Part shown: positions 1-19,121 of the stretch, piece by piece
How the letters are laid out: each line of letters opens with the position of its first letter
Numbering within the stretch: position 1 is the first letter of the stretch
From: a bacterium
GTDB taxonomy: Bacteria > Chloroflexota > Dormibacteria > Aeolococcales > Bog-877
Length of the DNA stretch: 64,000 nt
Assembly (NCBI GenBank): GCA_021827985.1
Contig: JAKATL010000001.1
Coordinates: forward strand, 182,376 to 246,375
Direction of reading: 5' to 3'
Program-made: the position numbers and the translations under genes
Notes under the pieces: model-generated
What the model saw: only the letters and a program-made list of their open reading frames with translations
Database searches by the model: none
Told to the model about the DNA's origin: nothing

Positions 1-22
1 GCCCCGCAATTGGAGGACTCTG

Positions 23-262
23 ATGGCCATTGAAACCGCCGACCTGACGCTGGACTGCCTGCACATGATGTGCCCGATGCCGATCGTCAGGGTCTCCAAG
101 GCGATCAAGGAGGTGGCCGTGGGGAAGACCCTGCTCCTGATCGCCGACGACCCCGGCGCCACCCCTGACATCGAGACCTGGGCACGCCGCACCGGCCATG
201 AACTGGTCGCAAGCGAGCGGGAGGGCAAGGTGCAACGCTTCCTGATCCGGCGGACTAGTTGA
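23..262 (+). CDS. tusA: TusA/SirA-like sulfurtransferase
   Basis: A 79-residue protein of the TusA/SirA/YedF fold, which carries sulfur as a persulfide on a conserved cysteine. The family motif CPMP is at residues 17-20, so Cys17 is the expected persulfide site. Length and the single-domain layout match the family. The ATG at 23 has a good ribosome site (GGAGG at 12-16). Its stop overlaps the start of the downstream HdrC-like gene (TGATG), so the two are probably translationally coupled. With hdrC and a lipoate ligase alongside, the likely job is sulfane-sulfur delivery to an sHdr-type complex rather than tRNA thiolation; this is inferred from context. Confidence 0.9.
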   Translation: MAIETADLTLDCLHMMCPMPIVRVSKAIKEVAVGKTLLLIADDPGATPDIETWARRTGHELVASEREGKVQRFLIRRTS

Positions 263-945
263 TGCGGCCCACGTCCGTGCCGGAGGCCACCCTGGAGGAG
301 AAGCAACGCCTGTTCGCCGAGGTCCAGGGGGACATTCGCTTCCCTGAATACCTCAAGGGTTGCTACGAATGTGGAATCTGCGTGGCGGCCTGCCCGTCGG
401 CGCGCTTCTACAACTTCAGTCCCCGCCGAATAACACAGGCGGTTGCCCGCCAGGACGTGGAGTTGGTCTGGGAGCAGATGAACGGAGAGGTCTGGGACTG
501 TTCGCAGTGCTTCTCCTGTCTGCGCTGCCCACGCGGCAACAATCCCGGGGGCGTCATCACCATCCTGCGTGAGGTCGCCGTGCGCAATGGACTGCGCTCC
601 GCCAAGGAGGCGCTGGAAGGGTACGGCCGGATCATCTACAAGATCATGGGCAGCGGCACCCAGGTCTCCCCGGACATGATCCAGCCCGAGGCTTTCCCGG
701 ACTGGGGCCCGGACACCAGGGAGGTCTCCGCCAATCTCGAACTCTGGCGCAAGGCGCTGCCCCCGGAAACGCTCCACACCACCAGCGTCTCCTGGGATGT
801 GGCCGAGAAGACGCTGACAGAGCTCTATTTGATCTGGCACATGACCGGCGTCCTGGACATGATCAAGGGCATCGACGTCAACCTGCACACGATTCTGGGA
901 GACGTCATGGAGGATCTGCTGGAAGAGCAGGGCTACTCGGTCTGA
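262..945 (+). CDS. hdrC: HdrC-like 4Fe-4S subunit (heterodisulfide reductase type)
   Basis: A soluble ferredoxin-like subunit of heterodisulfide reductase type, about 227 residues with no membrane segment. Two four-cysteine clusters are visible: C34, C37, C40, C44 followed by Pro, and C80, C83, C86, C89 followed by Pro. The second is compact (CxxCxxCxxCP instead of the usual CxxCxxCxxxCP). HdrC passes electrons between Fe-S subunits of Hdr complexes. The ATG at 262 overlaps the tusA stop; an in-frame TTG at 259 is possible. The last 41 bases overlap the end of the convergent J-domain gene. hdrA and hdrB are not in the window and would be expected upstream. A link to sHdr sulfur oxidation is inferred from tusA and the lipoate ligase. 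Confidence 0.85.
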   Translation: MRPTSVPEATLEEKQRLFAEVQGDIRFPEYLKGCYECGICVAACPSARFYNFSPRRITQAVARQDVELVWEQMNGEVWDCSQCFSCLRCPRGNNPGGVITILREVAVRNGLRSAKEALEGYGRIIYKIMGSGTQVSPDMIQPEAFPDWGPDTREVSANLELWRKALPPETLHTTSVSWDVAEKTLTELYLIWHMTGVLDMIKGIDVNLHTILGDVMEDLLEEQGYSV

Positions 946-2242
946 GGCGGCGGAAATCGCCTTCGGCGAAGAATAGGTAGAGGTCGGGCCCGACCCAGTC
1001 CCCTTGGGCCGGACGCAGGAGCCGGCTTTGCTGGACGCCGCCGCCCGGGCCAATCACCAGCACCCGGTCACGACCATAGGCCACCACCCCGGCCGCAGTG
1101 GCGCGCAGCCGGTAGGGCAAGCCGGCCGGTAGGCAGATCCGGCGACCGTCACCCAGCTCCACCAGCTGGCCGCCACCCACCGCCGCCAGCTGCCCTTGGT
1201 CATCGACCGCCAGCACCGCCGGACCACCGCCGCTCAGCCAGCCCCGATCGATCTCATGGCCCCGGTAATCGAGCCGATGCCAACTCCCGGAGCTGGTGGC
1301 GACCCAGACCCCATCCGAACCGGCCGCCGCCACGTCGCTGACCACAGTCAGCCCGGCACCTGGAGCATGCCTGCCCCCTGCGTCCTCCCGCAGCAGCCGG
1401 TAGGCGCTCGCCACCGAGCGGAATCGCTCCGCGGCGCGAGGATCGTCCGGATGGTGGTCGGGATGAGTCGCCCTGGCACGGCGGTGGAAGGCACGTCGGA
1501 GCTGCCGAGCGGGCGCATCCGGCGCCACCCCCAGAACGTCGGCCGCCTGGCATCGCTGGGCGCCCGAGATCGGGTCTGGGGCGAGTGGCGCTGGCAACTC
1601 CGCCCTCCAGCGCCGCGTCCCAGATCGGTCCAGCTCGCTGATCCCATCCCCGTCGGCAACCCATATTCTGGCCCCTTCCGGGTCGGCCCAGACGCGGCGT
1701 TCTGCGGGAGCGGACCAACCCGGAACCTGAAGGCGCCATCCGAGCCGCCCGTCCGCGTCGAAAGCGTGCAGTGACCCTCCCGCCGCAGCCAGCATCAGGG
1801 GGCCAGCTGCAAGCAATTGCGCCAGGGCTCGATCCAGGGTCAGCCGCCGCAGGACCTCCTCACCCGGTGCCAGGACCAGCAGTTCGCGCCCAAACGGACG
1901 GGTTAGAGCACGCTCGGCGATCCGAGCTGGCCAGCATCTCAGCCACAGGCGGCCCCCGGCGGCAGGCACGATCTGCTGAGCAGGCAAGGAGAGCTGGGCG
2001 AGGCGGTGGTAGTGTCGGCCCGGAGCTTCCATGACGCCGACCTCGGGATGCTCACCTGCCCGCCCCACCAATACGGAGTGGTCGGCCGCAACCGCAAACC
2101 CGGTTACGACGGGGCGCAGGGTGAGAGACTCCACCACGGCGCACCAGTTGGGGTCGGGCCGCAGCGGGGACGGGAGCTCCAGCCCCAAGGTGACCCGAGC
2201 GCTAACGGTCCGGTCGTCGATGTCCGAAGTGGAGGCGCACAT
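905..2242 (-). CDS. J-domain protein embedded in a beta-propeller-like repeat protein
   Basis: A 445-residue protein. Residues about 231-287 form a DnaJ-type J domain: a helix ending in a basic face, then THPDHHPDD with the HPD signature at 260-262, then an FRSVASAYRLL helix. On both sides lie short repeats rich in GG, W and D (about 40-225 and 295-430) that look like WD/PQQ-type propeller blades, so the J domain seems inserted within a propeller. No signal peptide or membrane segment is visible. The start codon overlaps that of lplA on the other strand (CATG at 2240-2243), and the 3' end overlaps hdrC by 41 bases. A TTG start about 54 bases in is an alternative. J domains recruit and stimulate Hsp70; the client here is unknown. 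Confidence 0.82.
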   Translation of the reverse strand: MCASTSDIDDRTVSARVTLGLELPSPLRPDPNWCAVVESLTLRPVVTGFAVAADHSVLVGRAGEHPEVGVMEAPGRHYHRLAQLSLPAQQIVPAAGGRLWLRCWPARIAERALTRPFGRELLVLAPGEEVLRRLTLDRALAQLLAAGPLMLAAAGGSLHAFDADGRLGWRLQVPGWSAPAERRVWADPEGARIWVADGDGISELDRSGTRRWRAELPAPLAPDPISGAQRCQAADVLGVAPDAPARQLRRAFHRRARATHPDHHPDDPRAAERFRSVASAYRLLREDAGGRHAPGAGLTVVSDVAAAGSDGVWVATSSGSWHRLDYRGHEIDRGWLSGGGPAVLAVDDQGQLAAVGGGQLVELGDGRRICLPAGLPYRLRATAAGVVAYGRDRVLVIGPGGGVQQSRLLRPAQGDWVGPDLYLFFAEGDFRRLRPSSPALPADPP

Positions 2243-3347
2243 GCAGGAGATACGACTCTTAGACCTAGGCCTCTGCTCTCACATCAAGAGCCAGACCCTC
2301 TACCACGCGGTGGCTTCGAGCCTGGGGCCGGACGACCCCAACACCATCATTCTCTGCCGGCCGCGACGGCCCTACGTCTGCATCGGCCGCCACCAGGAAC
2401 TCCACCACGAGGTCGACGCCGACGCCTGCCGGCGTCTGAGGCTGCCGATTCTGCGCCGCGAGGTCGGCGGTGGAGCTGTCTACCTGGACCGCGATCAATT
2501 GTTCTTCCAACTGGTCTGGCAACCCCGCGAGATGCCGGCGCGGATCACCGATGCCTTCGAGTACTTCGCCCGCGGTCCGGTGGCCTGCTACCAGGCTCTG
2601 GGAATCAGCGGAGCGCACTTCGCACCGGTCAACGACCTCCAGGTGGCCGGCCGCAAGATAGGCGGGCTGGGTGCCGCAAGCATCGGCAAGGCTTTCGTCT
2701 TCGTCGGTTCGATTATCACCGCCTTCGACGCCCGGGCGGCCGCCAGCGTCCTGCGCATTCCCGACGAGAAGCTGCGCGACAAGGTGGCCCAGACCATGGA
2801 GTCCTATGTATCCAGCTTGAACCGGGAACTCGGCCACCGGCCGTCGGTCCGGACGGTCCGCCAGGAACTGGTGGGAGCGTTCGAGCGCACTCTCGGCACC
2901 ACGATCGTTCACGGCGAGTTGCGCGACTCGGAACGGGTCGCGTACCGCCGCTGGGTCACCCAGATGCGGAGTCCGGCATGGATCGATCAAGTTCGGATGG
3001 CTCCTGACCACCTCAAGGCACTCCGCATCACTGGCAATGTGAGACTCGGTCACGCCATCCACAAGGCAGTCGGCGGCCTCCTGCGCGTGACCGTCGTGGT
3101 AGCGGATGGGCAAATCACCTCGGCTCTTATCAGTGGCGACTTCTACGCGGTGGGGGACGCCCTGGAGAGAGTCGGACAGGCCCTGCTGGGGCCCGCTGAC
3201 CTTAACCAGGTCAGCGCCCGTGTCCGGACGGAGTGGCCTGACGCTGCCATCCCCGGGGTGGCGCCTCAGGACCTGATCGAGACGGTGGGTTTGGCACTCG
3301 CACCTGTCTCCCAGTCCACGATTTCGGTGGACAACTGGTTGGGGTGA
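2241..3347 (+). CDS. lplA: Lipoate-protein ligase A family protein
   Basis: A 368-residue lipoate-protein ligase that attaches lipoate to acceptor proteins through lipoyl-AMP. The family motif RREVGGGAVY is at residues 72-81, and the conserved lysine region NDLQVAGRKIGG has K139. A C-terminal accessory domain (about residues 255-360) is present, so this is full-length LplA rather than a LipB-like short form. The ATG at 2241 is chosen for GGAGG at 2231-2235; an in-frame ATG at 2220 is less likely. In sHdr-type sulfur oxidation, dedicated ligases lipoylate the LbpA carrier. Next to tusA and hdrC that is the favoured role, although no lbpA is visible here. Confidence 0.88.
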   Translation: MQEIRLLDLGLCSHIKSQTLYHAVASSLGPDDPNTIILCRPRRPYVCIGRHQELHHEVDADACRRLRLPILRREVGGGAVYLDRDQLFFQLVWQPREMPARITDAFEYFARGPVACYQALGISGAHFAPVNDLQVAGRKIGGLGAASIGKAFVFVGSIITAFDARAAASVLRIPDEKLRDKVAQTMESYVSSLNRELGHRPSVRTVRQELVGAFERTLGTTIVHGELRDSERVAYRRWVTQMRSPAWIDQVRMAPDHLKALRITGNVRLGHAIHKAVGGLLRVTVVVADGQITSALISGDFYAVGDALERVGQALLGPADLNQVSARVRTEWPDAAIPGVAPQDLIETVGLALAPVSQSTISVDNWLG

Positions 3348-3483
3348 TGGGCGGGTCAACCAGGAGGAAGCCGGATGACCGAGAGACATGGGCGCGGACC
3401 TCCGCTCGGGACGCAAGCGTTCAGCCTCTGACCCCGGTGACCGTACCCCGCTTGCGGTACCAAGCTGACGTGTACCCGGGTCA

Positions 3484-3915
3484 GTGGTCTACGCCGGGCC
3501 TGGAGACGGAGCCGAAGTTACCGTGTCCCGGGGCACCTTCCTTACAGCCCTCAACTCCGGGAACGAGCCGACTCATGTGCGGGTGGACTCCCGCCCCACC
3601 CTGCGGGTGGAAGAGGTGCTGATCACAGGAGCGGAACCCGGAAGGCACCGGCCGGACGGACTGTCCAGATGGCGGTGGGCGGTCGAGGATCTCCTCTTCC
3701 TCGGCGACGTCCGCTCGGAGGTGGCAGCGCCCCTGGTTCCTCGGTCGGTCGTGGACCGAGGCGCAGGGGAGATCGCGGGCGGCGAGAGGGCCCCAGCCAC
3801 GGCACTCGGTACCGCACAGGCGTCCCCCGACCACCACGGGGCGGTCCTTCGTGCCTCCAGGCGGTCGGGTCCGACACCGGATTGTCCACACCCGAAGTGG
3901 GGAAAGAGAGGATAA
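3484..3915 (+). CDS. Possible hypothetical protein
   Basis: An open frame starting GTG that would encode 143 residues. The first half has ordinary codon use and reads like a small beta-rich domain (VTVSRGTFLTALNSG, RVEEVLITG). The second half becomes arginine- and proline-rich, like a frame read in high-GC noise. No family is recognised. There is no clear ribosome site, and frames on the opposite strand are of similar length, so it may be non-coding or the remains of a gene. Confidence 0.22.
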   Translation: MVYAGPGDGAEVTVSRGTFLTALNSGNEPTHVRVDSRPTLRVEEVLITGAEPGRHRPDGLSRWRWAVEDLLFLGDVRSEVAAPLVPRSVVDRGAGEIAGGERAPATALGTAQASPDHHGAVLRASRRSGPTPDCPHPKWGKRG

Positions 3916-12932: not shown

Positions 12933-13623
12933 CGGGGAGTTCCACCCTGATCGGCCCGCCGCCTCGCTGCTCGCAGATTGCCAGCCCGCGGTTGAGAAGG
13001 TCAAGCAGGGCCATGAAGAGAACCACCGCCTCCAGCCGGTCGGCGGCCGCAGCGAAGACCTGGTCGAAGATGAGCTCCCCGCGGGCTCGCAGTTCCTCCA
13101 GCAGGTGAGCCGATCGGACCTCGATCGAGTAGCGCGGTGAAGTGGCCTCCATGGTTACCTGGGGAGGCAGGCGGGAAAGCACCTCTCCAAAGGCCGCCGC
13201 CAGCGCCTCCGGCTTCAGACGGATGGTGGGACGCGGCTCCACGGGCACTCCCAGCACGCGCAGAAATGCCTTGGGGCCGGTGGAGGCGTCCGCCAGCAGC
13301 ACCTCGGCGGCGGCCTTGAACAGCCGGTACTCCTCCAAGCGAAGCGCGGGGTCAGGCTCAGGGTCGGCGAGGCTGGGCAGCGGAATCTCCGCCTCCTCGG
13401 GGTCGAACCGGCCCAGCTTCAGCTCCACTAGGCGGGTCAGCTCTCGGAGCGACTCCGCCGCCCACAGCAGGTCCAGGTTGCCTCCGTCCGCCTCCACCCT
13501 GGCCCGGAGTCGGGAGCTGAGCTCGGCCAGGGAGACCTCGGTCGGGTCGAGCTCCCGCCGCTGCAGGGCTGCGGCCAGAGTGGTGAGCTCCTCCAACTGG
13601 CTAGTCTGCCCAGGGTCAGCCAT
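12922..13623 (-). CDS. scpA: Segregation and condensation protein ScpA
   Basis: Kleisin subunit of bacterial condensin, 233 residues and acidic. The N-terminal part binds the Smc neck and the C-terminal part binds the cap; the pattern PTEVSLAELSSRLRARV...LLWAAESLRELTRLVELK is that of ScpA. It overlaps recN by 8 bases upstream and scpB downstream. Together with ScpB it should act in chromosome compaction; no smc gene is in the window. Confidence 0.88.
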   Translation of the reverse strand: MADPGQTSQLEELTTLAAALQRRELDPTEVSLAELSSRLRARVEADGGNLDLLWAAESLRELTRLVELKLGRFDPEEAEIPLPSLADPEPDPALRLEEYRLFKAAAEVLLADASTGPKAFLRVLGVPVEPRPTIRLKPEALAAAFGEVLSRLPPQVTMEATSPRYSIEVRSAHLLEELRARGELIFDQVFAAAADRLEAVVLFMALLDLLNRGLAICEQRGGGPIRVELPVGG

Positions 13624-15349
13624 CTTCTACCCCCGAGGCTGCCACCCCGGCCCCCACCGCCGCCAGCAGTTCGGCGGCATGGTGTCGCGCCGCTGCCGGG
13701 GTCGCCTTCCCGGCCAGCAGCCGCGCCAGCTCGTTGACGCGTTCCTCCCCCTCCACCGGCTCGAGATGGCTCATCGACCTCCCCTGCGACTCGGTCTTGC
13801 GCACCCTGAGGTGGCGCCTGCCCCGAGCGGCGATGGTGGCCAGATGAGTGACGCAGATCACCTGGCGCTGTCCGGCCACCTGGAGCAGCAGATCACCCAC
13901 CCGGTTCGCCGCCTCCCCTCCGAGCCCCTCATCAATCTCGTCAAAGACGACCGTCCCGGCCTCGGCCCGGATCGACAGTCGCGCCAGCACCGCCAGCACC
14001 ACCCGGGAGAGCTCGCCCCCGGAGGCGGCCTCGGTGAGCGGCCGGAGAGGATCACCACGGTTGGCCGCAAGCAGAAACTGAACTCGGTCCCAGCCGTCCG
14101 CGGACACCCTGTACCGGACCCCGCCGGGCCCAGTCACCCCCTCAGGATCCTCGTCCCGCCAGAGCCGGACCCGGAGCTCGGCGGCGGGCATGAGCATCTG
14201 GTGCAGGTCTCGGGTCACCTCTGCCGCTAGCTCCGTGGCAGCCCCGCTTCTGATCTCGGTCAACTCCTGGCAGGAGGCCGCGAGGCGTTCCCCCAGCTTC
14301 TCGAGCTGGGCCCCGAGCTCACGCAGGTCGAGGCCCGCCGTCCCCTCGACCGCCAGCAGCTGGCGGGCCGCCTCCCGGCGGCGGATGGCCTCTTCCAGAG
14401 TGCCCCCGTGGCGCCGGGCCACCCGCTCCAGCAGCTCCAGCCGCTCCTCCACCTCCTCCAGCCGGCCCTGGTCAGGGGGGAGTCGCTCGAGGTAGGACCC
14501 CAGCTGGAGCCCGAGATCGCGCAGGATGGCGAGGGCATCCTCCGCCTGGACCCGTGAGCGGTCCAGCTCGGGGTCGATGGCGAAGGCGGGCCGACCAGCC
14601 TGCAGCTCGGCGGCGATGGCGTCTGCAGCTCCGAGGTCGGCATCGGAGCCGACCACCGCCCGGCGAAGGCCCTCCGCCGCCTCTTGGAGCCGCACTAGGT
14701 GCAGGAGCCGCTCGCGCTCCTCGCGCAGCCTATGGTCCTCCCCGGGGATCAGCCGCACGGCCTCCAGCTCGGCCAGGTCGGAGCGGGCTCCGGCCAGGTG
14801 CGATGCCTCGGCGAGGGTGCGGTCCTGAGCGACGGCGAGTTTCTGGGCCAGCAGTCGGTGGTTGCGCTCGAGCTCCGCCACCGCGGCCCGGAGCTCCAGC
14901 GCCCTCGCGCCAGCGTATCCGTCCAGCCCGGCTCTCTGGTCTGACTCCCGGAGCCAGCGGCTGGCGGTCCCCTGGCCGTGCCGCTCCACCAGCCGCTCCC
15001 CCAACTCGCGCAGCTGTGACGCCGGCACCAGCCCACCATTGATGCGGGCGGGGCTTCTCGGCCCCAGCTCCCGGGTGAGCACCAGGACCTCGGCCGGGGC
15101 CACCCCCAGGCCGGCCAGCTGCTCGGTCTGGTCGTCGGGCCAGCTGAACGTCGCCGAGACCAGCGCGCGCTCCGCCCCCTGGCGCACCATCTGTGGGTCC
15201 CCGCGGTCCCCGAGGGCCAGCCCCAGCGCCGCCAGCAGGATCGACTTGCCGGAGCCGGTCTCGCCGGTCAGCACGTTGAGCCCATCACCGAAAGCGCACT
15301 GCGCGGATTCGATGACCGCCAGCCCCCGGACGCGCAGCTCCAGCAGCAC
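13616..15349 (-). CDS. recN: DNA repair protein RecN
   Basis: A 577-residue SMC-like ATPase that acts early in double-strand-break repair. It has Walker A LTGETGSGKSILLAAL near the N-terminus, a central coiled coil rich in Leu, Glu and Arg, the ABC signature ASGGELSRVVLAVLARL, and Walker B VFDEIDEGLGG. Length matches the family. The nadK-recN pairing is common. One base separates it from nadK. Confidence 0.94.
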   Translation of the reverse strand: MLLELRVRGLAVIESAQCAFGDGLNVLTGETGSGKSILLAALGLALGDRGDPQMVRQGAERALVSATFSWPDDQTEQLAGLGVAPAEVLVLTRELGPRSPARINGGLVPASQLRELGERLVERHGQGTASRWLRESDQRAGLDGYAGARALELRAAVAELERNHRLLAQKLAVAQDRTLAEASHLAGARSDLAELEAVRLIPGEDHRLREERERLLHLVRLQEAAEGLRRAVVGSDADLGAADAIAAELQAGRPAFAIDPELDRSRVQAEDALAILRDLGLQLGSYLERLPPDQGRLEEVEERLELLERVARRHGGTLEEAIRRREAARQLLAVEGTAGLDLRELGAQLEKLGERLAASCQELTEIRSGAATELAAEVTRDLHQMLMPAAELRVRLWRDEDPEGVTGPGGVRYRVSADGWDRVQFLLAANRGDPLRPLTEAASGGELSRVVLAVLARLSIRAEAGTVVFDEIDEGLGGEAANRVGDLLLQVAGQRQVICVTHLATIAARGRRHLRVRKTESQGRSMSHLEPVEGEERVNELARLLAGKATPAAARHHAAELLAAVGAGVAASGVEDG

Positions 15350-17052: not shown

Positions 17053-18358
17053 CGGGCACCTCCTTGCTCGGCTCCACCCCTGTCACCTGACTGCGCACCC
17101 GTCCCAGGGCCAGCTGGGTCACCAGCCGGTCGCCGGGGTGCAGCTCCCGGGGGTCGCGGACCAGCCTCTCGCCCTCCTCCTGCCAGGTTATCGAGTAGCC
17201 ACGCTCTAGGACAGCGAGCGGGGAAAGCGCCAACAGCCGCCCACCCCTCCCCCGCAGCTCCTCCTGCAACTGGCCGAGCCGGGGTGCGGGACCGCGCGCG
17301 GCCAGAAGCTGGCGTCGTGAGGAGAGCTGGTCCGACAGGCGGCCGAGATGACGGGCGGCCGCGCTGGCCAGCCGCTGAGCGGCACGGTCCAGGTCCTGCT
17401 GGCCCTCCATGAGCAGCCGCCGCGGGGCCAGGCGCTCCAGCCGGGCGGACGTGCCGGTGAGCTGCTCGGTCCGCCCCACCAGGAAGGCGGTGCCTGCCCT
17501 CCCGAGTCGTAGGTGCCTCGCCCCCAACTCGTGGCGCAGGCCGTCCCGGTCGGGGACAGCCAGCTCGGCGGCGGCCGAGGGGGTGGGGGCGCGGCGGTCG
17601 GCCACGAAGTCGACCACCGTGGTGTCGGTCTCGTGCCCCACCCCGGTCATGACCGGGACCGGACAGCTGGCCACCGCCCGCGCCAGCTCCTCAGAGTTGA
17701 AGGCGGAGAGATCCTCAAGGCTCCCCCCGCCCCGGACCAGCAGGACCAGCTCCGCACCCGAACGACCGGCCACGGCCATCGCCGCCACCAGCTCGGCCAC
17801 ACTCCCCTCCCCCTGCACCAGGGAGGGGACGACCACCAGCTCGGTGATCGGGCAGCGGCGGCTGACCACGTGGATCACGTCCCGGACGGCGGCGCCTCGC
17901 GGGGATGTGACCACCGCGACCCGCCGGGGAAGGAATGGGAGCCGGCGCTTGCGCTCGGGGCTGAAGAGTCCCTCGGCCTCCAGACGGGCCACCAGCTGCT
18001 GATAGGCCAGCGCCAGGGCCCCGACTCCCGCCGGCTCCAGATGATCCAGATACAGCTGGACCTCCCCCTTGGCCGGATAGACCGATATGCGCCCGTGGGC
18101 GATGACTCTCTGGCCGGTTTCCGGCTCGAAGGCCAGGGAGGAGCCGGCGCCGCGGAAGAGCACCGCCCGGATCGAGGCCTGGTCGGTGCGCCCCTCCCGA
18201 CAGTCCTTCAGCGTGAGGTAGCGATGACCGGCCGCGGACCTGGTGCAGGTGCCGATCTCGGCCTCAACGTACACGTCCTGGAGCGCTGGGTCTTCCTCCA
18301 GGTCCGCCCGGATCAGGCTGTTGAGCTCCGCCACCTGCAGGACGCGGCGCACCAGCAT
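17042..18358 (-). CDS. xseA: Exodeoxyribonuclease VII large subunit
   Basis: A 438-residue catalytic subunit of exonuclease VII. It has an N-terminal OB fold (LQVAELNSLIRADLEEDP, VYVEAEIG), then the catalytic region with VVTSPRGAAVRDVIHV, a GGGSLEDLSAFN motif and GVGHETDTTVVDFVADRRAPTP. The ATG at 18358 overlaps the nusB stop (TGATG); the frame stays open further upstream but that part falls inside nusB. Confidence 0.93.
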   Translation of the reverse strand: MLVRRVLQVAELNSLIRADLEEDPALQDVYVEAEIGTCTRSAAGHRYLTLKDCREGRTDQASIRAVLFRGAGSSLAFEPETGQRVIAHGRISVYPAKGEVQLYLDHLEPAGVGALALAYQQLVARLEAEGLFSPERKRRLPFLPRRVAVVTSPRGAAVRDVIHVVSRRCPITELVVVPSLVQGEGSVAELVAAMAVAGRSGAELVLLVRGGGSLEDLSAFNSEELARAVASCPVPVMTGVGHETDTTVVDFVADRRAPTPSAAAELAVPDRDGLRHELGARHLRLGRAGTAFLVGRTEQLTGTSARLERLAPRRLLMEGQQDLDRAAQRLASAAARHLGRLSDQLSSRRQLLAARGPAPRLGQLQEELRGRGGRLLALSPLAVLERGYSITWQEEGERLVRDPRELHPGDRLVTQLALGRVRSQVTGVEPSKEVPDDR

Positions 18359-18762
18359 CAGACCGCCTCCCTCGCCAGCTGGCCCAGAACCCCGTTGACG
18401 AAGCGGGCGGCATCCTCCCCACCGAGCTCCTTGGCCAGCCCGACCGCCTCGTCCAGGGTCACCGCCTGGGGATCCCGGCGGCGCCAGATCAGCTCGGCGG
18501 CCCCCAGGCGGAGGACTCCTCGCTCCACCCGCCCCATCTGTTCCAACTTCCAATGGGTGGCCGCCGCCTGCAGCGCCGCATCGATCTCGACGCGGTGCTC
18601 CTGGACCAGCGCCACCAGCTCCTCCGCGAAGGCCGCCGACTCCGGCGGCAGGTCATCCTCGGCGAGCTGGTAGGCGAATGCCGGACGCCAGTCCCCCGGG
18701 TCCTGATCGAGCTGGAAGACCACCCGGAGGGCGAGCTGGCGGGCGCGGTGGCGAGGCCTCAA
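18358..18762 (-). CDS. nusB: Transcription antitermination factor NusB
   Basis: An all-helical RNA-binding protein that joins NusE/S10 on boxA RNA during rRNA antitermination. The sequence from RHRARQLALRVVFQLDQ through RVERGVLRLGAAELIW to VTLDEAVGLAKELGGEDAARFVNGVLG is typical. The TTG at 18762 overlaps the stop of the Asp23 gene as TTGA and yields 134 residues, the usual length. Longer in-frame starts lie wholly inside the neighbour. Confidence 0.9.
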   Translation of the reverse strand: MRPRHRARQLALRVVFQLDQDPGDWRPAFAYQLAEDDLPPESAAFAEELVALVQEHRVEIDAALQAAATHWKLEQMGRVERGVLRLGAAELIWRRRDPQAVTLDEAVGLAKELGGEDAARFVNGVLGQLAREAV

Positions 18763-19121
18763 CCGCCGGCCAGCTCGCGGACCAAGACGTTGACCTCGAC
18801 GACCTCGAGCCCAAGCATCCTTTCGATGTCCCGAGACACCCGCCGCTGCAGCTCCTGCACCAGCTCCGGAAGGGTGGCCCCGGCCTCGATCGCGATGCCC
18901 AGCTCGAGCCGGATGGCCGCGCTCCCGATCATCTCCAGACGGACACCGCGGTGCCCCGCCTGGCGGCGCAGCGGGCGGGGCACGGGCACTCCCTGGAGCT
19001 CGCACATGTGAGCCACCCCTGGGGTTTCCAGCGCCGCCAGGGAGGCGATCGCGCCTACCACCTCGCTGGCCACTCGGACGCGCCCTGGAGGCTGCTCCCG
19101 CAGGGTGGGGGCGGTGGTCAC
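18759..19121 (-). CDS. Asp23/Gls24 family envelope stress protein
   Basis: A 120-residue protein of the Asp23/Gls24 (YqhY) family: VRVASEVVGAIASLAALETPGV, then EMIGSAAIRLELGIAIEAG, and ERMLGLEVVEVNVLVREL. Members are cytoplasmic and sit near the membrane or accompany fatty-acid synthesis genes. The position between efp and nusB is the same as for yqhY in Firmicutes. Overlaps efp by 4 bases. Confidence 0.9.
   Translation of the reverse strand: MTTAPTLREQPPGRVRVASEVVGAIASLAALETPGVAHMCELQGVPVPRPLRRQAGHRGVRLEMIGSAAIRLELGIAIEAGATLPELVQELQRRVSRDIERMLGLEVVEVNVLVRELAGG

Follow-up and report, generated by a model that had tools for sequence, protein, structure and literature searches.

In this study, we investigated the start of a 64,000-nucleotide stretch of DNA from an uncultured lineage of Chloroflexota (the window; bases 182376-246375 of a 311-kb contig from a draft genome of 2.83 Mb, 93% complete), where genes for the sulfur carrier TusA, the HdrC-like protein sHdrC1 and the lipoate ligase LplA stand together with a gene for a J-domain protein. 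Judged by its gene content, this part of the window is almost certainly where a complete type II sHdr sulfur-oxidation island ends on its 3' side. Taken as a whole, the locus is best explained, with a probability of roughly 0.6, as a type II sHdr island with a dedicated ligase for the lipoylated carrier LbpA and a locus-linked co-chaperone of DnaK. Profile matches were obtained for all four families where an earlier note on this DNA had placed them. The J gene is real and does lie between hdrC1 and lplA as that note described, but it is on the minus strand, out of line with its neighbours.

The remaining genes of the island were found upstream on the same contig, which was read over the preceding 16 kb (L002) and a further 20 kb upstream (L029). 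On the window strand, L002 carries in order aprA (incomplete in L002), QmoA-like and QmoB-like flavoproteins, an HdrCB-like protein, sHdrB1 (CCG), sHdrA, a hypothetical protein of 247 amino acids (aa) (H), a fused HdrC-HdrB protein with two ferredoxin motifs and CCG (B3), EtfB, EtfA, a 664-aa membrane iron-sulfur (Fe-S)/CCG protein, a 133-aa hypothetical protein, a small zinc-finger-like protein, LbpA1, LbpA2 and a 73-aa CxxC protein, after which tusA and hdrC1 follow. The sHdrB1-A-H-B3 genes occupy L002 6247-10515, with C1 (window 262-945) about 9 kb downstream of B1; etfBA is at L002 10526-12264 (Pfam ETF 2.7e-28, ETF_alpha 4.4e-35), and the two LbpA copies (GCV_H 9.6e-33 and 4.1e-27) display the lipoyl lysine motifs ESSKW and ESAKW. 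L029 harbors Sat, an ArsR-type regulator, DsrE2, a further DsrE and a gene whose product was taken for a metallo-beta-lactamase/rhodanese fusion (rhodanese by Pfam; persulfide-dioxygenase-like). The type II system has been defined by shdrC1B1AHB3 and etfAB in one cluster (PMC11582611), and here C1, B1, A, H and the fused B3 are syntenic, etfAB is in the cluster and LbpA bears its lipoyl lysine. The earlier note had read TusA, HdrC and LplA as sHdr-type sulfur oxidation and proposed a check for hdrA, hdrB, lbpA and dsrE upstream; all of these are present, lbpA in two copies, and LplA stands apart from the E. coli-type ligases, so that its reading is upheld. An incomplete sHdr-like remnant is ruled out by the same upstream genes. 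Since Sat, AprA, Qmo-like and DsrE genes occur within about 35 kb upstream, a single island may encode every step between sulfane sulfur and sulfate. Small cysteine-rich (zinc-ribbon-like) proteins are encoded on either side of the lbpA pair, one widespread in type II loci (L002:14648-14941) and one (L002:15812-16033; CxxC...CxxC) seen in four genomes of the window's family only.

The further suggestion that the locus extends the known range of the pathway is weak, as earlier papers have described the type II system and the locus has relatives in Thermomicrobium, Oscillochloris, Anaerolineae, metagenome-assembled genomes of Ktedonobacterales/Chloroflexi and other Chloroflexota. Type II sHdr in Chloroflexota is already known; what is new is the locus variant with the J gene. 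Most other type II loci follow the order tusA-dsrE-hdrC1-B1-A-H-B3-etfB-etfA-membrane protein-(zinc finger)-lbpA1-lbpA2-lplA, and lplA directly after lbpA2 is the rule among them. The window's family and G087, a genome of the same class, instead have tusA-hdrC1 behind lbpA2. In G087 the slot between hdrC1 and lplA (L072:5967-7052) is filled by a same-strand gene whose product is an Mrp/NUBPL Fe-S carrier containing an FeS_assembly_P domain, which by analogy gives circumstantial support for a maturation role of the J gene in that slot. Directly before hdrC1, loci of Thermomicrobiaceae (L061:6742-7493, Thermomicrobium type) have one more LbpA and a small thioredoxin/glutaredoxin-like open reading frame (ORF) with CxxC.

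The J gene converges on hdrC1 and diverges from lplA, and its reading frame indicates a real coding gene under purifying selection: across four genomes third codon positions vary most, and the nonsynonymous rate (dN) is below the synonymous rate (dS) in every pair (closest, 0.15 vs 0.35). An antisense artefact was ruled out by this codon-position pattern, the HPD motif and the conservation in four genomes. Sequence profiles relate residues 149-219 to designed Cake propellers and the central part of the protein to J domains. Two AlphaFold2 runs with different lead sequences, on four sequences only, gave pLDDT values of 77.9 and 74.8 and a pTM of 0.72, and both models flank a three-helix J domain with strands on its N- and C-terminal sides. 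The best Protein Data Bank (PDB) matches of the first model in Foldseek were eight-bladed designed propellers and BamB, with TM-scores by target of about 0.6-0.7. The protein is predicted to be a propeller interrupted by an inserted J domain, its exact blade number being unsure. No HscB model was present among its NCBIfam matches, and our literature searches found no published J domain in a propeller.

The distribution of the J-propeller gene was followed in 110 genomes of the class, 400 Chloroflexota genomes across the phylum and 80 named type II sHdr loci; genome-wide statements rest on genome searches. In the class it stands at the identical place in 4 of the 110 genomes (G000, G009, G015 and G017), which are the sHdr-bearing genomes of the window's family, all draft assemblies; it is absent from three other sHdr genomes and from 103 genomes without sHdr (Fisher p 6e-6). 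Within the family it is present in 4/4 sHdr genomes vs 0/14 others (p 3e-4), both tests ignoring shared ancestry. A check of conservation beside hdrC1 and lplA, as the earlier note advised, was positive, with the same placement in every sHdr genome of the family. The phylum-wide set showed the gene only in G000 and G009, and the 80 loci only in L074 and L075, two contigs of the same family; the LSA5.bin69 contig is sequence-identical to that of G015. Strict positional conservation and co-occurrence with sHdr make a functional link between the J protein and the system slightly more likely than not, and its participation, which the earlier note put forward as inference, is supported to that extent.

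Several observations weigh against a functional link. The J protein is only 44-54% identical to the window copy in the three family relatives vs 86-89% for sHdrC1 and 87-93% for sHdrB1, and the gene is on the opposite strand from its sHdr neighbours, so it is not simply an operon member. Most type II loci are without it, and the only four J-propeller sequences known come from draft genomes of a single family, which keeps them from counting as independent observations. A full-length DnaK that could serve as partner was detected above the cut-off in G000, G015 and G017, which speaks for the co-chaperone reading; that none was found above it in G009, a genome 86% complete, speaks against.

The island has a scattered distribution in the class, with sHdrB1 in 7 of 110 genomes, so that the J gene may be no more than its companion: the gene could have arrived with, or been inserted into, the island in the family ancestor and been kept by linkage while doing general chaperone work that has nothing to do with sulfur oxidation. 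Its restriction to one family, fast evolution, opposite strand and absence from most type II loci agree with such a passenger, yet the gene is intact under purifying selection across three genera with a constant 41-bp overlap, and was never seen without sHdr among the 110 genomes, which leaves this explanation rather unlikely. A little less likely still is that the gene acts mainly by its position, the read-through of the sHdr operon to lplA being antisense to the J mRNA and giving reciprocal expression that couples chaperone need to sHdr expression, as in a noncontiguous operon. Co-directional genes on both sides of an opposite gene, with overlaps at both ends, recur in four genomes and match a published architecture (PMC7154746), and a scan of 1-3700 gave no promoter-like site and no plus-strand terminator. 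That scan, however, covered the sigma-70 consensus only, and lplA may have its own promoter; its one terminator-like site, vs 1.3 expected, was on the minus strand inside hdrC1. Since the J protein sequence is under selection, the gene is not only an antisense RNA; by analogy, the antiparallel layout may plausibly affect regulation.

The second element of the preferred explanation, a ligase dedicated to LbpA, was approached by a maximum likelihood tree of 62 rows, in which linkage to LipS served as proxy for sLpl(AB), with no row for a characterised sLpl(AB) of Hyphomicrobium or Thioalkalivibrio. The window LplA and its three family relatives group together (100/99) inside clade B (100/100), whose 45 rows come from type II sHdr loci; the 12 rows of ligases adjoining lipS1/lipS2 make up another clade, A (99/94), LplA of E. 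coli, Enterococcus and Streptococcus fall outside both (100/98 branch), and LplA of T. acidophilum lies on the sHdr side. The catalytic lysine is conserved in NDLQVAGRKIGG and kept across clade B, whose motif is RRxxGGGAVYLD...Q vs RRxTGGGAIxMG...Q in clade A. From its clade, its position and the characterised sHdr ligases, which work with LipS1/LipS2 (PMC6067878, PMC10332631), the window LplA is probably specific for LbpA. The LipS1/LipS2-linked sLpl(AB) type was rejected for it by its place in clade B and the lack of LipS1/LipS2, and the E. coli/LplJ type (clade 2) by the 100/98 branch between them. The translation start of lplA is most likely ATG 2241, as in relatives, rather than 2031, which would give a longer ORF overlapping the J gene.

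In the search for lipoate synthesis genes that the earlier note had also recommended, LipA and LipB were recovered adjoining the 2-oxoacid dehydrogenase E2 in G000 and G009, and LipS1/LipS2 were missing from the family: LipS2 was not found in G000, G009, G015 or G017, and LipS1 gave nothing there beyond matches near E 1e-3, the one in G000 being LipA. Both LipS proteins do occur in G025 and G087. In G015 a contig end truncates LipA, and the search did not recover LipA from G017; all four family genomes harbor a true GcvH besides the LbpAs. That LplA is an ordinary E2/GcvH ligase here by chance, with unrelated TusA and HdrC genes, is very improbable because of its tree position and the lbpA2-lplA adjacency elsewhere; the genome does have GcvH and E2 needing lipoyl groups, but these have a LipA-LipB of their own adjoining E2.

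A ligase is shown by 45 of the 80 named type II loci, and 33 of these 45 are without a LipS gene within the DNA examined around the locus. In many type II sHdr loci the ligase belongs to a clade other than that of the LipS-linked sLpl(AB), a finding relevant to an open question, namely how LbpA is lipoylated in about one quarter of sHdr bacteria that lack LipS1/LipS2 (PMC10332631). Two ligases are present in type II loci of Myxococcota, Actinomycetota and Calditrichota (L088, L111, L117, L122, L125, L126, L132 and L145); where both were placed in the tree, one is in clade A, beside lipS1/lipS2, and one in clade B, which suggests separate jobs.

The locus is proposed to work as follows. TusA and DsrE-type carriers would hand sulfane sulfur on to the sHdr complex (C1, B1, A, H, B3), and this complex, together with lipoylated LbpA1/LbpA2, would run in the oxidative direction to sulfite; electrons would exit via EtfBA and the membrane Fe-S protein, and Apr/Qmo/Sat would take sulfite to sulfate. 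LplA would load lipoate or octanoate onto LbpA1/LbpA2 and, because the family is without LipS1/LipS2, sulfur would most likely be inserted by LipA, or free lipoate salvaged. The J protein would be a cytoplasmic DnaK co-chaperone whose propeller holds a client and whose J domain (HPD) recruits DnaK for its assembly or repair. Any specific client is a guess; Fe-S subunits such as sHdrC1, which has two [4Fe-4S] motifs (CYECGICVAAC and CFSCLRCP), are favoured because the Mrp gene fills the same slot in G087, with LbpA or LplA as the alternative. Little is known of how the sHdr complex, with its many [4Fe-4S] clusters, and its lipoylated carrier are put together, and a chaperone gene confined to sHdr loci is a named candidate for a part in this process. 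The full combination, a DnaK co-chaperone dedicated to sHdr that arose by insertion of a J domain into a propeller, antiparallel in the operon and reciprocally expressed, with a second, hitherto unrecognised sHdr ligase clade served by LipA and not LipS1/LipS2, is tentative and, on balance, doubtful.

Table 1. Features at the start of the window and in the upstream DNA; positions are those of the window unless L002 or L029 is given. The tusA stop (TGA 260-262) and hdrC1 start (ATG 262) overlap by one base.
Feature	Position	Strand	Evidence or remark
tusA, sulfur carrier	23..262	+	Pfam TusA 1.3e-22; CPxP motif at residue 17
shdrC1	262..945	+	HdrC-like 4Fe-4S dicluster, Pfam 2.6e-8; NCBIfam HdrC 4.5e-22
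J-domain/beta-propeller gene, 445 aa	905..2242	-	J domain Pfam PF00226 8.9e-12
hdrC1/J gene tail-to-tail coding overlap, 41 bp	905..945		identical length in 4/4 genomes, even where protein identity falls to 44%
C-terminal propeller half, about residues 301-435	938..1342	-	AlphaFold2 and PDB matches
J domain, residues 235-287, between propeller strands	1382..1540	-	Pfam and AlphaFold2 model
HPD motif, residues 260-262	1457..1465	-	intact in all four genomes
N-terminal propeller half, about residues 34-215	1598..2143	-	sequence profile and AlphaFold2
lplA (+)/J gene (-) start-codon overlap, 2 bp	2241..2242		kept in 3/4 genomes; in G009 the genes are separated by 35 bp
lplA, sHdr type II-associated lipoate ligase (clade B)	2241..3347	+	LplA/B catalytic domain PF21948 7.2e-32
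Sat, AprA, Qmo-like, DsrE, ArsR-type regulator and rhodanese-domain genes	L029:1734-3104, 13512-14957, 17805-19040; L002:1-6008		within about 35 kb upstream

With reference to known systems, the J protein resembles Class C J-domain proteins, which are DnaK co-chaperones, in having a J domain with HPD and a basic helix II, but its J domain is set inside a BamB/PQQ-like propeller and no G/F, zinc-finger or HscB region was matched. The arrangement of its gene is like the noncontiguous operon menE-menC-MW1733-ytkD-MW1731 (PMC7154746), with an opposite-strand gene between co-directional functional partners and overlaps; the layout in the window is known from gene order in four genomes. The ligase shares with sLpl(AB) (PMC6067878, PMC10332631) the linkage to sHdr, a place on the tree's archaeal-type (T. 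acidophilum) side and the catalytic lysine, and differs in belonging to clade B and in its four genomes, which have LipA instead of LipS1/LipS2. The island as a whole agrees with type II sHdr (PMC11582611) and with hdr cluster II of Sulfobacillus (PMC4378227) in all defining subunits and etfBA, and in holding the long membrane Fe-S/CCG protein, TusA, DsrE, LbpA and lipoate ligase in one region. It departs from these clusters in that tusA-hdrC1 lies between lbpA2 and lplA rather than at the cluster front, the dsrE genes are separate and further upstream, and a minus-strand J-propeller gene stands between hdrC1 and lplA.

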